From: a virus
Reading direction: 5' to 3' (one strand)
Virus record (IMG/VR): IMGVR_UViG_3300018411_000041
Location: 1-41,608 of that record
DNA length: 41,608 bases
Made by a program: the position numbers and the translations under genes. Positions 4,447 to 41,608 of this stretch are shown here, one piece after another (the first letter of the stretch is position 1; each line of letters starts with the position of its first letter). The notes under the pieces were generated by a model, which saw only the letters and a program-made list of their open reading frames with translations, made no database searches and had not been told where the DNA came from.

Positions 4447-4530
4447 AAGCTTCTATTCCTTGTAAGTAAAAGATCAAAAAATTAAAAATAAAGAAAGTAA
4501 AATGTTTTGCCAGAAGGCGAGAAACACACT

Positions 4531-4537
4531 AAAGGAA
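4531..4537 (+). promoter_or_regulatory. Ribosome binding site that sets the nrdJ start
   Basis: AAAGGAA lies 5 nt before the ATG at 4543. The frame extends upstream to a TTG at 4507, but that codon has no comparable site, so the ATG is preferred. Confidence 0.6.
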
Positions 4538-4542
4538 CAGCT

Positions 4543-7500
4543 ATGACGATGCAAAAACAAGAGATTTGTACAGAGGTTTTGATTCAGAAGTATGCTAAGA
4601 ATAACGAGACTACTGAAGAAGAAGTTAAGGCAAGAGTTGCAAAGTGTTTAGCTTCTGTAGAGAAAGAACCAGAAGCATGGGAACAAGAATTTCTATGGGC
4701 TTTGAACAACGGCTTTATACCTGGTGGTAGAATTAATAGCGCTGCTGGTACTGATCTAACCGCTACACTTATTAACTGTTTTGTTCAACCTGTAGGCGAT
4801 AGTGTTCTTACAACTACAGATGGTTACTTAGGTATCTATCCTGCTCTTACACAAGCTGCTGAAACTATGCGTAAGGGTGGTGGTGTTGGTTATGACTTCT
4901 CACGTATACGTCCTAAAGGAGCTTTTGTAAAGACTACAAACTCTTTTGCATCGGGACCAATTTCCTACATGAGAGTATTTGATCGTTCGTGTGAAACGAT
5001 TGAGTCAGCTGGTAGCAGAAGAGGTGCTCAGCTCTCTTCTATGAGATGCGATCATCCTGATATCTTTGAGTATATTCATGCAAAAGATAAAGGAGATCTG
5101 ACAAATTTCAATATGTCTGTAAACGTTACAGATAGTTTTATGGAAGCAGTTATTCTTGAAAAAGATATAGAGCTTGTTCATAAGGTAGAACCGTTAAAGA
5201 GTAGATACCCTGATAGTTACCAACGTAAAGATGGTCTTTGGGTATATAAAAAAGTTCCAGCAAAAGACATCTGGAACGAGATGATGAAATCTACGTACGA
5301 TCACGCAGAACCTGGAGTACTCTTTATTGATACTATTAATAAAGATAACAACCTTAAGTACTGTGAAACAATCGAAACCACTAATCCGTGTGTAACTGGC
5401 GATACAGTTATACTAACTAACGCAGGACATATTCCAATTGAATTACTAGTAGGAAAAGAAACTACTATTTGGAATGGAAAAGAATGGAGTAACGTAACTC
5501 CGTATGTAAGTGGTGAAAACGAATATATTTACGATATAGAGTTTAGTGATGGATCGAGTCTTTCTTGTACACCAAATCATCAGTTTGTACTTCACAACGA
5601 ATCAAAGATTACTGCAAAAGAACTTCAGGTTCAAGATAAACTAGTTGAATTTACTTATCCTTTAATCGAAGGATATAAGGAGCATGATACAGAACAAGCG
5701 TATATAAGTGGCTATAACTTTTTAGTAAAGCCATCCTCTGTTCCTTTTACTAAGTTAAGTGGATTAAAGAAAAGTATTCTTGAGTCTGTGAAGACTAAAG
5801 GACAAGTATCCTATACTCCAAAACCACCGACCGTTACAGCTGTTCGATCAAGTAATGAAAGTATACTTGATGCTACGTATACTATTAAATCCAGACTCGC
5901 TTGGATAGCTGGTCTTATTGATTCTTACGGAGTAATCTCTAAGGATCAGTTAGTAATACGTTGTGGAAATAAAAGTAAACTACTTCAGATAAAGTATCTG
6001 TTAAGTACACTGAGTTGTAATAGCATATTAAGGTGTACTGAAAAAGATACCTATGTATTAACTATATGCTCTTTTACATTGGTGTGTTTAGGTATACAGA
6101 ATTTTAATATAGATCTGTTATCCGTTAATTCAAAAGCAATAAAGAACACGCTACGTGTAGTAAGTAAAACACTTAGAGAAAAGACTGAAGCAAAAGTATA
6201 TTGCTTTACTGAACCTCTTAGAAATACAGGTATATTTAACGGTGTACTTACCGGTAATTGTGCAGAACAACCTTTACCGCCCTATGGGTGTTGCTGTCTT
6301 GGTTCAGTAAATCTTACTGTCTTTGTAGAGAAATACTTTACTTCAGAAGCATATATTAACTATACTAAACTTAAAGAAGTAGTTAAGTTAGCTGTAAGAA
6401 TGTTAGACAATGTTCTTGATGCAACTCAATGGCCTCTTCAGGAACAGAAGAGAGAAGCTCAGTTAAAAAGACGTGTAGGGTTAGGGTTTACTGGATTAGG
6501 TAATGCTCTCGCTATGTTATGTCTTAAGTATGATACGCAAGAAGCTCGTAATAAGGCTACTGAAATAGCTGAAGCTATGAGAAACTTTGCATATGAAGCT
6601 TCAGTAGAACTTGCTAAAGAAAAAGGAGCATTTCCTTTGCTTGATGCAAATAAGTACTTGACAGATACATTTGCTTCTAGATTGCCTACTGAAATTAAAG
6701 ATAAAATCAGAAAAACAGGTATAAGGAACTCTCATTTACTTAGCGTGGCACCTACTGGATCAATCTCTATAGCTTTTGCAAATAATGCAAGTAACGGCAT
6801 AGAACCACCGTTCTCTTATTTCTATACAAGAAAGAAAAGAAACCAAGATAATACAACTACTGAACATAAAGTATGTGACTACGGATATTTGTTATATAAG
6901 CACACCTATGGTGAAGAAGCAGAACTTCCTTCATACTTTACTACTGCATTAGATATAAGTGCAACTGACCATGCCGCTATGGTTGCAGCTGTAGCTCCTT
7001 ATATCGATTCAGCTATTTCAAAGACTATCAACGTACCTGAAGATTATAGTTATGATGACTTTAAAGATATCTACCTATATGCTTGGAAGAATAAGATTAA
7101 AGGTATAGCTACCTATAGACCTAACTCTGTGCTTGGTTCTGTTCTTTCTGTAGAACCGAAAGAAGTAAAAGAGGTTAAGAAAGAACATCCGGTAGTGGAT
7201 CTGAATACACGCTTTAAGCATGATAAGATTCATTCAAGTCTATCTGAACTTAAATGGCCAAATAGACCTTTATTTGAAAAAGGTAACCCAGCTTGGTGTT
7301 ACATGATTGAAACCAATGAAAATAAGTTTACTGTCTTTATAGGCCATGTAGAGAATGGTAAGCCGTTTCCGTTTGAAGTATGGGTCAACGGGCCACATGA
7401 ACCAGAAAGCCTCGCAGCGGTCGCTAAAACGCTTTCTATGGACATGCGTGTAAAAGACAGAGCTTGGTTACAATATAAGTTAGGTCTTCTTGCAGAGACA

Positions 7501-8223
7501 TCTGGAAGTCCGGTTGATGTACAGCTATTTGACGGTAAGTTTAAACGGTATAAAAGTATACCATCGGCTTTAAGTCATATGGTAACAGATAGATGTAATG
7601 AGCTTCAAGTCTTTAATGATATCAAAGAAGATGAAAGCTCAATGATCAATAATCTACTATTTCTACATGAACCAAATCTCGGTACCACCGGAACACTATC
7701 TTGGACAGTAAATATAAATAACCACATGACTAATGATAACTTTACTCTTGGTCTAAAAGAGATAGATGTACGCATCAATGTAAACAATGAAAGTAAGCTT
7801 ATTACTGTTCCATATTCTATTTGGTTAGCTGGCGAGTATTCTACTTCCTTAAACGGATTAACAAGTCTTCTTTCTGGAGATATGCGTATAGCTGACTTTA
7901 ACTGGATTGGATTAAAGTTAAAGAAACTTCTTACGTATAAAGAACCTTCAAGTGAATTCTTTGCCACTATACCTGGTGAAAACAAACAGATGGTATATCC
8001 AAGTACTGTAGCTTATATGGCTGATCTTATTTTGTATAGATATCAAGTATTAGGTATATTAAATAAAAACGGTAATTCATTACTAAGTACAAATACTGAC
8101 TTTATTTCTACTCCAGCTAGTGAAGTAGGAAAAGAATGTCCTGAGTGTTTTCATAATACTCTTATTAAAAAAGATGGGTGTAATTTCTGCACTACTTGCG
8201 GATATATCGGTAATTGTGGATAA
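4543..8223 (+). CDS. nrdJ: Class II (adenosylcobalamin-dependent) ribonucleotide reductase with intein
   Basis: It reduces ribonucleotides to deoxyribonucleotides for phage DNA synthesis. The precursor is 1226 residues; removing a 290-residue intein (residues 283-572) leaves about 936. Recognisable parts are the first redox cysteine in LINCFVQP (C79), the joined block [12 protein letters not shown] with the radical-forming cysteine at C573 and the partner cysteine in GCCCLGS (C584), and SVAPTGSIS plus [10 protein letters not shown], matching the class II 'iAPTGtIS...GIEP.Fa'. The extreme C-terminus is a four-cysteine cluster (CPEC...CNFCTTCG) typical of NrdJ, where it re-reduces the active site. 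Class II enzymes need no radical-generating partner subunit, and none is seen nearby. The usual 'GACNLGS' is GCCCLGS here. A U-tract terminator follows directly. Confidence 0.92.
5389..6258 (+). other. Intein within nrdJ (290 residues)
   Basis: The insertion begins with Cys1 in CVTGDTVIL (block A), contains a block B motif [11 protein letters not shown], and ends with NGVLTGN directly before Cys+1 of the extein (blocks F/G). The removed segment separates NP from [10 protein letters not shown], a block otherwise continuous in this enzyme family. One LAGLIDADG-like motif, IAGLIDSYG, lies near 5905-5931. A second copy is not evident, and the 290-residue length is short for an intein with a full two-motif endonuclease, so the homing part looks reduced. 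The residue before the terminal Asn is Gly rather than the usual His. The intein sits immediately before the radical cysteine, so the enzyme should be inactive until splicing. Confidence 0.92.
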
Positions 8224-38526: not shown

Positions 38527-39354
38527 ATGAATGCACTCATATACTCTATCAACGAGATCAATAGACAAATACCCAAAGAACTATTACACGCGGCGTTATA
38601 CGTAGATGAACAACCTGTAACTGCAAATCTTACAAGTACCGATGAAAAGATTAGACTAAAGATTATTAAGAATAGAGTTGCTTTAGATACGAATATCGTC
38701 GGCGGTATACAGATGATCATATCGTTAGGTAACGTTGCTCCTGCTTTTGCTGAAGCGTATTATACTCTTTATTATATAGATCCTTCTTTAACAAATAATA
38801 AAGAGATCGTGTCTGCTTTAAACATTACTTACTTACCCGGACAAGGGTTTTTTGGTCCAAATAACATCTTCTATTCAAATACTTCTTTCGGTGGATATTC
38901 GAACTTTAACTCAACTTTAAACGTTGCAAATAGAGTAAGTTCTTCTGCTTCTGATATGAGTATTATTAACAATGCTCATTTAGAGTTAGTTGCTTATAAT
39001 ACTATTTTAGTATATGCAAACTATAGAGCTATCATGAACTACGGTATACGTGTTATGCTTGAGAACAACGAAGACTTTTCGAACATATCTACTCGAAGCT
39101 TTAAGAACTTTTCTTATCTTTGTGTATTAGCTGCTAAGTCTTATATATACAATAAACTAATTGTAAAGATCAACTCTGGTTATTTGCAAGCTGGTCAAGA
39201 GTTAGGTACTTTTAAACAAATACTTGATAGTTATGAAAGTGCTGAAGAAGAGTATAGAACTTATCTAAAAGAAGTATGGTCACCTACGGCTTTTATGGCC
39301 GATACTACTCGTTATAATAGATACCTAAAAAGTATGTTATCTCCCGATGTTTAA
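38527..39354 (+). CDS. Probable virion structural protein (275 residues)
   Basis: Ser/Asn/Tyr/Ala-rich. The C-terminal segment (residues ~225-275, containing ILDSYESAEEEYRTYLKEVW and FMADTTRYNRYLKSM) looks like a conserved helical end seen in large-phage neck or tail proteins. That comparison is from memory and unverified. AGAAAGGA precedes the ATG and a U-tract terminator follows. No membrane segment or enzyme motif. Confidence 0.7.
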   Translation: MNALIYSINEINRQIPKELLHAALYVDEQPVTANLTSTDEKIRLKIIKNRVALDTNIVGGIQMIISLGNVAPAFAEAYYTLYYIDPSLTNNKEIVSALNITYLPGQGFFGPNNIFYSNTSFGGYSNFNSTLNVANRVSSSASDMSIINNAHLELVAYNTILVYANYRAIMNYGIRVMLENNEDFSNISTRSFKNFSYLCVLAAKSYIYNKLIVKINSGYLQAGQELGTFKQILDSYESAEEEYRTYLKEVWSPTAFMADTTRYNRYLKSMLSPDV

Positions 39355-39365
39355 CTTTTTTTTAC

Positions 39366-39410
39366 CAAGGAAAAGCTTCTGTTGTGGGAGCTTTTCTTTG
39401 TTTGATTTTT
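39366..39410 (+). terminator. Intrinsic terminator
   Basis: CAAGGAAAAGCT (39366-39377) pairs with AGCTTTTCTTTG (39389-39400), one G-T pair, followed by TTTGATTTTTT. Confidence 0.75.
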
Positions 39411-39475: not shown

Positions 39476-40000
39476 ATGAAGAACTTAGAGAAAAAGAAGT
39501 TAAACGCTGAAATTGAAGCTATCGTTGATAACAATTTCGAGGTAGTTACTAATGATCAGAGTGAGATTAATAAGCTACTTGAGGATCAGGATGTAAACTG
39601 GGATGATCTTGAGAAACTCAAGCAAGAGCTTGGTTCTAAGATTATGGAGTTTACTAAGAACATTGTAGATATTATTGGTAGAAAAGATATCATCGATAAT
39701 CTTAAAGGTCAAACTGCTGAGTTTAATCAGCTTATCAATTTGTTCTTTACGGATATTAATAACTTTAGTCTTAAGGTAAAAGACTTAATTAAGCAGCATG
39801 AAGGTAAGAGTGGTCCTGTAAAGAATATAGATGAAGTGTCTGAGTACAACCGAATTGCTATTCAGTATAACTTCTATTTTTCAGAACTTCTTACGTTAAT
39901 TGCTCCTACTCTCGCTGAAATCCTTATTTTGATTAAAGAGGTTTCGTTAGAGGATATTTCTAAACAAGCTATTACAGACGTAGAGGTAAAACCAGCATGA
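39476..40000 (+). CDS. Unknown protein (174 residues), likely tail assembly partner
   Basis: An acidic, helical protein with coiled-coil character (SEINKLLEDQDVNWDDLEKL). AAGGAAG precedes the ATG. It ends in an ATGA 4-bp overlap with the gp26-like gene, so the two are coupled. A tail assembly role is inferred from this neighbour only. Confidence 0.7.
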   Translation: MKNLEKKKLNAEIEAIVDNNFEVVTNDQSEINKLLEDQDVNWDDLEKLKQELGSKIMEFTKNIVDIIGRKDIIDNLKGQTAEFNQLINLFFTDINNFSLKVKDLIKQHEGKSGPVKNIDEVSEYNRIAIQYNFYFSELLTLIAPTLAEILILIKEVSLEDISKQAITDVEVKPA

Positions 40001-41511
40001 GTACCGAGAACTTAAATGAAGAGAATGTTGAGCCTATTAAGGAATCGATTCCAGAGGCTTTAGAACAATTCACAAGCGAGTTAAAACAAGAAGAAGTACC
40101 AGTAGAACAGTTTAACTCTTATCAACGCTATACGTACTTTAAAACAGATAAAGAAGTATCTAAAGCTATCTATTCCTTTAAGCTTCCTTCAGTACCTTTA
40201 ACAGTACTCAATAAGAAGTTAAGCGATCAGCAGAATCTTGATATAGATGAAAAAGATGTAAAGTATAAAGAATGGAAAGAAGCTACCGAAGAAGCTCTTG
40301 AATACTATACGCCTTTTAGTCTTTATCAGAATTGCTTTACTGATAAGACACGCTCATTTAAACAAGGCGTAGAAAAAGACGATCAATTAAAGTCTATCTC
40401 TGACTTTAAGTTCAAGAAGACTGAAGGTGAAATTAAAGGAGAACTTGCTCTTTTAAAAGTATCTAAGTTATTAGGGTTAGGCGATGTAGTAAGTGTACCT
40501 TTACCTCATTCAGGTATTTCAGTAACTATTAAACCGCCTACAGAAAAAGACTTAATTGATTTTTACAATATTATCTTTAGAGAAAAAGCTATACTTGGAA
40601 GAGCTACTTCCGGTTTAACTCTTTCAAACTTTTCTGTTTTTGTAAATAGTAAAGTACTTGAGTTTATCATTAAACATGTGCATAGTGTAAACTATAGCGA
40701 TATCAATAAAAGTGATCTTGGTAACTATATCGTTATACACGATTTACCTATACTTGCATGGGGCTTTGCTGCTTCTGTTTATCCGAATGGATTTAATTTT
40801 AAGAGATCTTGCGTAGAAGACTTGTCTAAATGTAACCATGTACTCTCTGGTTTAGTTGATGTAAAGAAACTTCTCTGGGTAGATAATACAGCATTTACTT
40901 CTGTACAAAAAGACATCTACTTTGAAGATAGACCAAACAAGCATACACTTGAAGTATACAGAAAGTATAAAGCAGAACATACTCGAGTAAAATCTCAATC
41001 ATTTACTACTGGAAATGGTCTTAAGTTTTATCTAAGGTTACCTACTTTAAACGAGTATTTTTCTGACGGCCTTAGCTGGGTAAATAAGATCAATAATGCA
41101 GTTGAAAACGTTATACTTGAGTCTTCTGAAAAAGAAGAAGACGCTAAGAGAGAATTACTTACTCAGTATGTAAAATCATCCTCACTAAGACAGTACAGTC
41201 ATTTTATTGACTATATTGAAGTAGATGAAAGTGTTATTAATGATAGAGAAACAGTAAACTCTGTACTTGAAGCATTATCTTCAGATGACAGTTTAAGAAC
41301 TGATATACTTGAAAAGCTTCATAAGTTTATTGCAGATACAACTATAGCTGTTGTGGGTATACCTGAGTATAAATGCCCTAATTGTGGAAAAGAACAACAG
41401 GTAGATACCATCAATGAACGTTTTGTGAACGTTATTCCTTTAGATACTATAAACCTTTTTTTTGGCCTCATTACTCTTCGTATAGCCAAAATAACGGAGA
41501 GGGCGATATAA
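39997..41511 (+). CDS. T4 gp26-like baseplate/tail assembly protein (frame 0 product)
   Basis: A 504-residue protein. After an acidic ~150-residue N-terminus, the central part begins VSVPLPHSGISVTIKPP, which resembles the start of the T4 gp26-type baseplate domain ('LPSkG...i.irp'). Near the end, YKCPNCGKEQ is the two-cysteine knuckle seen in gp26/gp51-like hub proteins, followed by VIPLDTINLFFGLITLR. These proteins help assemble the baseplate hub and tape measure. Frame 0 ends 48 bases after an 8-T run, and the -1 frame stays open past it (see the frameshift entries). The gp26 assignment is from motif memory and moderate. Confidence 0.55.
   Translation: MSTENLNEENVEPIKESIPEALEQFTSELKQEEVPVEQFNSYQRYTYFKTDKEVSKAIYSFKLPSVPLTVLNKKLSDQQNLDIDEKDVKYKEWKEATEEALEYYTPFSLYQNCFTDKTRSFKQGVEKDDQLKSISDFKFKKTEGEIKGELALLKVSKLLGLGDVVSVPLPHSGISVTIKPPTEKDLIDFYNIIFREKAILGRATSGLTLSNFSVFVNSKVLEFIIKHVHSVNYSDINKSDLGNYIVIHDLPILAWGFAASVYPNGFNFKRSCVEDLSKCNHVLSGLVDVKKLLWVDNTAFTSVQKDIYFEDRPNKHTLEVYRKYKAEHTRVKSQSFTTGNGLKFYLRLPTLNEYFSDGLSWVNKINNAVENVILESSEKEEDAKRELLTQYVKSSSLRQYSHFIDYIEVDESVINDRETVNSVLEALSSDDSLRTDILEKLHKFIADTTIAVVGIPEYKCPNCGKEQQVDTINERFVNVIPLDTINLFFGLITLRIAKITERAI
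41458..41464 (+). promoter_or_regulatory. Candidate -1 ribosomal frameshift site
   Basis: In frame 0 the codons CTT TTT TTT GGC contain the slippery heptamer T TTT TTT (inside the T8 run 41456-41463) followed by G. Slipping back one base joins frame 0 to the -1 frame, which is open to the window end. Confidence 0.5.
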
Positions 41512-41608
41512 AGTATATCGCTGATGCAAAGTTTGGTTTGAATATAGATTATAATGAGTTCTTAGAACACATACTTACTAATGTAAAAAGAATACCTAAT
41601 TACATATA
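41463..41608 (+). CDS. Frameshifted (-1) C-terminal extension or next gene (partial)
   Basis: The -1 frame reads open from 41418 to the end of the window. After the T run it gives WPHYSSYSQNNGEGD followed by IKYIADAKFGLNIDYNEF, which has coding character. There is no ATG, GTG or TTG start in this frame after the upstream stop. Alternatives are a rare ATA start at 41508, which has GGAGAGG just upstream, or a sequencing slip in the T run. Confidence 0.5.

Follow-up and report, generated by a model that had tools for sequence, protein, structure and literature searches.

In phage T4, gp26 and gp51 are encoded by separate paralogous genes on opposite strands. Both proteins belong to the Pfam family PF12322 (T4_baseplate), and gp51 consists of this domain plus a C-terminal extension. 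T4-like chaperones were reportedly treated by Vladimirov, Gautam and Davidson in 2022 (pmid 34826709). A passage of PMC10885494 cites published work on the short and long chaperone genes of T4-like phages. In phage lambda, a short form, gpG, is accompanied by gpGT, a long form with an extra domain (reviewed in PMC5009743), and in the jumbo myophage G the tail chaperonins gp181 and gp182 were named from their frameshift signature (PMC8570332). Here we describe a locus of this kind at the end of a 41,608-nucleotide stretch of viral DNA (IMG/VR record IMGVR_UViG_3300018411_000041, positions 1 to 41,608; hereafter the window), which with high probability gives rise to two tail assembly chaperones through programmed −1 frameshifting in a phiKZ-like jumbo phage; steps that go beyond the comparisons themselves are worded conditionally.

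The locus resembles lambda gpG/gpGT in pairing a short form with a long form that would carry an extra domain, and differs from it in the length of the frame-0 product (about 500 amino acids), in its T_TTT_TTT site and in the genes that come next in related phages, where no tape measure gene is found. The phage G genes lie within a tail gene block that includes the tape measure gene, and they belong to another phage group. With T4 gp26/gp51 the locus shares a frame-0 protein that reaches PF12322 and a predicted fold matching those of T4-like hub assembly proteins, whereas the two T4 proteins come from two genes.

Slip site and reading frames

The following features, all on the plus strand, define the locus.

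39997-41511, plus strand: frame-0 open reading frame (ORF) of 504 amino acids, giving the short product, a gp26-like candidate tail assembly chaperone that contains the motif CPNCG, homologous to PHIKZ077 (phrog_4585)
41457-41463, plus strand: slippery heptamer T_TTT_TTT, in phase, within the eight-T run (T8) at 41456-41463
41463-41608, plus strand: −1 frame extension of 48 amino acids, with TGG (41463-41465) as first new codon, cut by the window end; phrog_12109-type domain
41474-41501, plus strand: putative stimulatory hairpin, CTCTTCGT (41474-41481) paired with ACGGAGAG (41494-41501), 10 nucleotides past the slip site; covariation in six genomes
41509-41511, plus strand: frame-0 stop codon TAA, end of the short product

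Frame 0 reads AAC CTT TTT TTT GGC across the run, with CTT starting at 41455. The original prediction placed this eight-T run 48 bases before the frame-0 stop, a figure that counts from the first base of the last TTT; between the final T and the stop lie 45 nucleotides. In the −1 frame a stop lies at 41415-41417; from 41418 onwards no stop interrupts it within the window. Past the frame-0 stop its codon usage score is +0.39, inside the 5-95% range for in-frame pieces of the phage's own genes (+0.16 to +0.50) and outside that for out-of-frame pieces (−0.85 to −0.16), so the earlier description of this frame as open and coding-like holds. It was also correctly described as lacking a usual start: within the window the open −1 frame has no ATG or GTG, and its sole TTG, at 41538, falls inside a conserved block.

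Conservation among phiKZ-like phages

A tblastn search with the frame-0 protein returned 228 phage records, every one below 60% identity and with phiKZ-like phages prominent, and an alignment-based scan contributed 39 further viral contigs. Judged by the relatives of this gene and by the other genes of the window, which include RNA polymerase beta parts, a split DNA polymerase, and baseplate and virion proteins, the virus is a member of the phiKZ-like jumbo phages.

A conserved T run in related phages had been proposed as a check, and such a run lies 24-52 nucleotides ahead of the frame-0 stop in all 44 complete relatives. In each of these, 136-164 codons of open −1 frame follow the stop; the +1 frame is mostly closed within a few codons. 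The same layout occurs in phiKZ (PHIKZ077 followed by PHIKZ076.4), SPN3US and EL, and the nearest relatives of the window, L008 and L009, carry eight Ts in identical phase. Sorted by slip site, the 38 distinct loci comprise 27 with the canonical T_TTT_TTN, 10 with TTT_TTT and one with CTT_TTT. Elsewhere in these genes an in-phase T_TTT_TTN was found at none of 20,599 codon positions, and none of 352 control ORFs from the same loci had both a slippery T-run within 75 nucleotides of its end and a long open −1 frame. No frameshift mark is present in the genome records examined.

The −1 frame as a protein

The −1 extensions of the relatives, 150-181 amino acids long, can be aligned as one family; its landmarks are a GHV..FG block and an S..EFL.LPR motif. 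The family matches three groups with no assigned function, phrog_12109, phrog_7580 and phrog_13274. The 48-residue piece in the window is 45% identical to the L008 extension over 47 residues (E value 1e-13); used directly in a tblastn search against phages, it gave chance matches only. The −1 frame has no ATG, GTG or TTG ahead of the conserved FG in 18 of 32 loci, among them the window, L008 and the phiKZ-like L005, and therefore the conserved part could not be made there from a separate ordinary start.

Substitutions between close pairs are concentrated at third positions of the −1 frame. From the upstream region to the two-frame overlap, third-position change falls about tenfold in one clade (0.34 to 0.03), and in another it is 0.53 upstream against 0.15 in the overlap. 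Both frames appear to be under protein-level selection across the phage family.

A downstream hairpin in the clade of the window

In the window and in L008, L010, L011, L012 and L013, a hairpin of 7-11 base pairs starts 7-10 nucleotides past the heptamer. It is rare against shuffled versions of each single sequence (P from <0.002 to 0.018). Two of its pairs are altered on both sides, one from A-U to U-A and the other from G-C to C-G or U-G, and the covariation score, computed on hand-aligned arms, was reached by none of 500 shuffles.

In seven other loci (L004, L032, L033, L036-L038 and L044) the DNA is near-invariant from the slip site to the frame-0 stop (TTTTTTACCTTGGCGGGCCAGA...). This exceeds what two frames may need, and an RNA element is possible there.

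Identity of the frame-0 protein

The original prediction saw a gp26-like tail gene here, and two lines of comparison agree with it. Against the Pfam T4_baseplate model (PF12322) the window protein scores 25.6 bits, above the cut-off of 24.5. An AlphaFold2 model of the protein (predicted local distance difference test score 81) was compared with the predicted structures in BFVD, a comparison of predictions with predictions, and matched predicted T4-like baseplate hub assembly proteins with E values of 1e-4 to 1e-5 and a template modelling score, by target, of about 0.5. In the homologue from phiR1-37 the Pfam model and the phiKZ-type alignment both fall at the same place, each weakly.

Fold searches of the PDB gave no significant match to a solved structure with either model, and a second look found none for the −1 domain. 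HK97 gp13 (2ob9) aligned with a Z score of 3.0 and a root mean square deviation of 3.9 over 92 of 107 residues, no better than unrelated rows. The −1 domain had no match to a close gp51 profile; compared by hhalign with the C-terminal extension of gp51, it shared a short motif only, S-x-x-E-F/L (E value 0.003, probability 11%). The phiKZ-type extension is longer than that of T4 gp51, and homology between the two is only suggestive.

Proposed mechanism and alternative explanations

We propose that most ribosomes would read frame 0 through to the TAA at 41509 and release the short gp26-like chaperone of 504 amino acids. At T_TTT_TTT the peptidyl- and aminoacyl-tRNA-Phe could re-pair one base back, a slip that would be aided in the clade of the window by the hairpin 10 nucleotides downstream, and a fraction of ribosomes would continue in the −1 frame to make a long protein that is extended by about 160 residues. 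The two forms would then act on the tape measure and tube subunits in the manner of lambda gpG/gpGT or T4 gp26/gp51, and would be absent from the virion. The site, the −1 coding frame, their conservation, the lack of a usual start and the hairpin were all obtained from sequence comparison; the shift on the ribosome, its efficiency and the roles of the two forms are inferred. The programmed −1 frameshift put forward in the original prediction is strongly supported by the in-phase site, a single −1 protein family, the absence of a start in many genomes, constraint on both frames and a covarying hairpin, and we hold the frameshift itself to be very probable. A tail chaperone role for its products is likely, with somewhat less assurance.

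The same −1 product could in principle arise through transcriptional slippage, with RNA polymerase adding one U on the T8 run so that some mRNAs carry the −1 frame. Eight Ts are long enough for this, and these phages have unusual RNA polymerases of their own. Yet the layout is kept in relatives with only five or six Ts, which are too short for much polymerase slippage, the conserved unit consists of in-phase phenylalanine codons, and the hairpin in the clade of the window stands at ribosomal spacing; we therefore consider this route improbable. Still less probable is a separate downstream gene of the ordinary sort, translated from a start of its own, with the T-run incidental. The downstream ORF is annotated in that way in several phages, and some loci do have an in-frame start between the T-run and the conserved block, but the 18 of 32 loci without ATG, GTG or TTG before that block speak against it, as do the invariant phase of the T-run and the constraint on both frames in the overlap. 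The run is also a homopolymer 146 nucleotides from the contig end, and might be suspected of having one T too few or two too many, whether by sequencing error or because the gene is broken in this contig. We exclude this for practical purposes: the nearest relatives, L008 and L009, carry eight Ts in the phase seen in the window, the same break recurs in all 44 relatives, and the frame-0 tail is conserved in its own right.

Several observations weigh against programmed frameshifting in a chaperone gene. The −1 frame is cut by the window end after 48 residues, and a search for a contig extending the window past its end found none. L007 has just five Ts at the site. At an E value of 0.1, PF12322 picks up no more than 2 of 29 family members, and in a profile comparison with T4 gp51 the CPxC region alone aligns. 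Because MAFFT misplaced the loop gap, the loop of the hairpin was removed and its two arms were aligned manually. Over all clades, downstream folding is not stronger than upstream folding (mean z −0.94 versus −0.61, P 0.30), and therefore the hairpin is claimed for the clade of the window only; a downstream structure common to the whole family is unsupported by this test. Finally, a tape measure gene beside the frameshift gene is absent in the relatives, where DNA polymerase or small genes follow. The expectation of a tape measure gene downstream thus failed, and gene order is therefore no evidence here.

Gene neighbourhood and virion data

One further gene adjoins the locus.

39476-40000, plus strand: upstream gene of PHIKZ078 type (phrog_14050), overlapping the frame-0 ORF by 4 nucleotides and probably in the same operon

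In L008 the gene pair is followed by a pyrophosphohydrolase and a DNA polymerase, and the phiKZ locus is surrounded by RNA polymerase and helicase genes. In SPN3US the tape measure protein is gp239, encoded away from the gp39/gp40 locus (PMC5694885), our gp39/gp40 numbering following record order. The main text of that paper, whose full table is in its supplement, names neither gp39 nor gp40 among the virion proteins.

Two other parts of the window are of separate interest. At 39356-39400, just past the stop of the gene at 38527-39354, come, in this order, an eight-T run, an inverted repeat (AAAAGCT/AGCTTTT) and a T-rich stretch, a terminator-like arrangement. At 4507-8223, a gene for the ribonucleotide reductase large subunit has an insert of about 280 amino acids that resembles an intein (CVTGDT..., a LAGLIDADG-like motif, and an end before NC).

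Comparison with known systems and wider pattern

The system is of a known kind. Its novelty, judged by the open literature, lies in its presence and conservation in every complete phiKZ-like relative read, the long first product and a site away from the tape measure gene; searches of open-licence papers brought up none that treats frameshifting in phiKZ-like phages. The locus offers a candidate tail chaperone pair, PHIKZ077 with its −1 extension and SPN3US gp39/gp40, for the nucleus-forming jumbo phages, in which tail assembly is poorly known. Several annotated small ORFs would then not be genes of their own, and the classic signal can be located at a distance from the tape measure gene, out of reach of rules based on gene order.

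Cyanophages provide a close parallel. The gp26 gene of P-SSM2 (L068) ends in AGT TTT TTC GTA TAA, and the peptide in its −1 frame, annotated as a separate 'gp51', resembles the C-terminus of T4 gp51 (E value 2e-7). The pattern NNT TTT TTC, with a single codon between it and the gp26 stop, is present in 80 of 80 related cyanophage contigs (L081-L160). These genes resemble the phiKZ-like locus in having T_TTT_TTC, then a stop, and a gp51-like extension in the −1 frame; they differ in that the extension is just 60 amino acids long and an ATG lies 5 nucleotides past the start of the stop codon, where re-initiation is possible. Cyanophages may make a gp26-51 fusion of which the annotated gp51 is the tail. 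Slip-like gene ends with −1 extensions also occur in RaK2, AR9, phiR1-37 and phiA8-29.

Two further arrangements were seen among gp26-type genes. In Bacillus phage SP-15 (L071, 1465-2238) such a gene has GAA TTT TTT CAC near its end and a gp51-like extension of 67 codons in the +1/−2 frame, a hint of shifting by −2 or +1. In Campylobacter phage CP81 (L073, L076) two T4_baseplate family genes stand side by side, a tandem version of the two-gene arrangement of T4.

We lean slightly towards the hypothesis that frameshifting is the ancestral route to tail chaperones in contractile-tailed phages with a gp26-type gene. It would have been kept by phiKZ-like, AR9-like, RaK2-like and Ackermann-type phages and by cyanophages, sometimes far from the tape measure gene, and exchanged in T4 and the Campylobacter phages for gene duplication, with gp26 as the short and gp51 as the long form. 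The separate gp26 and gp51 of T4, set against the single frameshifted gene of cyanophages and jumbo phages, open an evolutionary test of this idea. If it is true, many genes labelled 'gp51', or listed as small unknown ORFs, are merely the frameshifted tails of fusion proteins.
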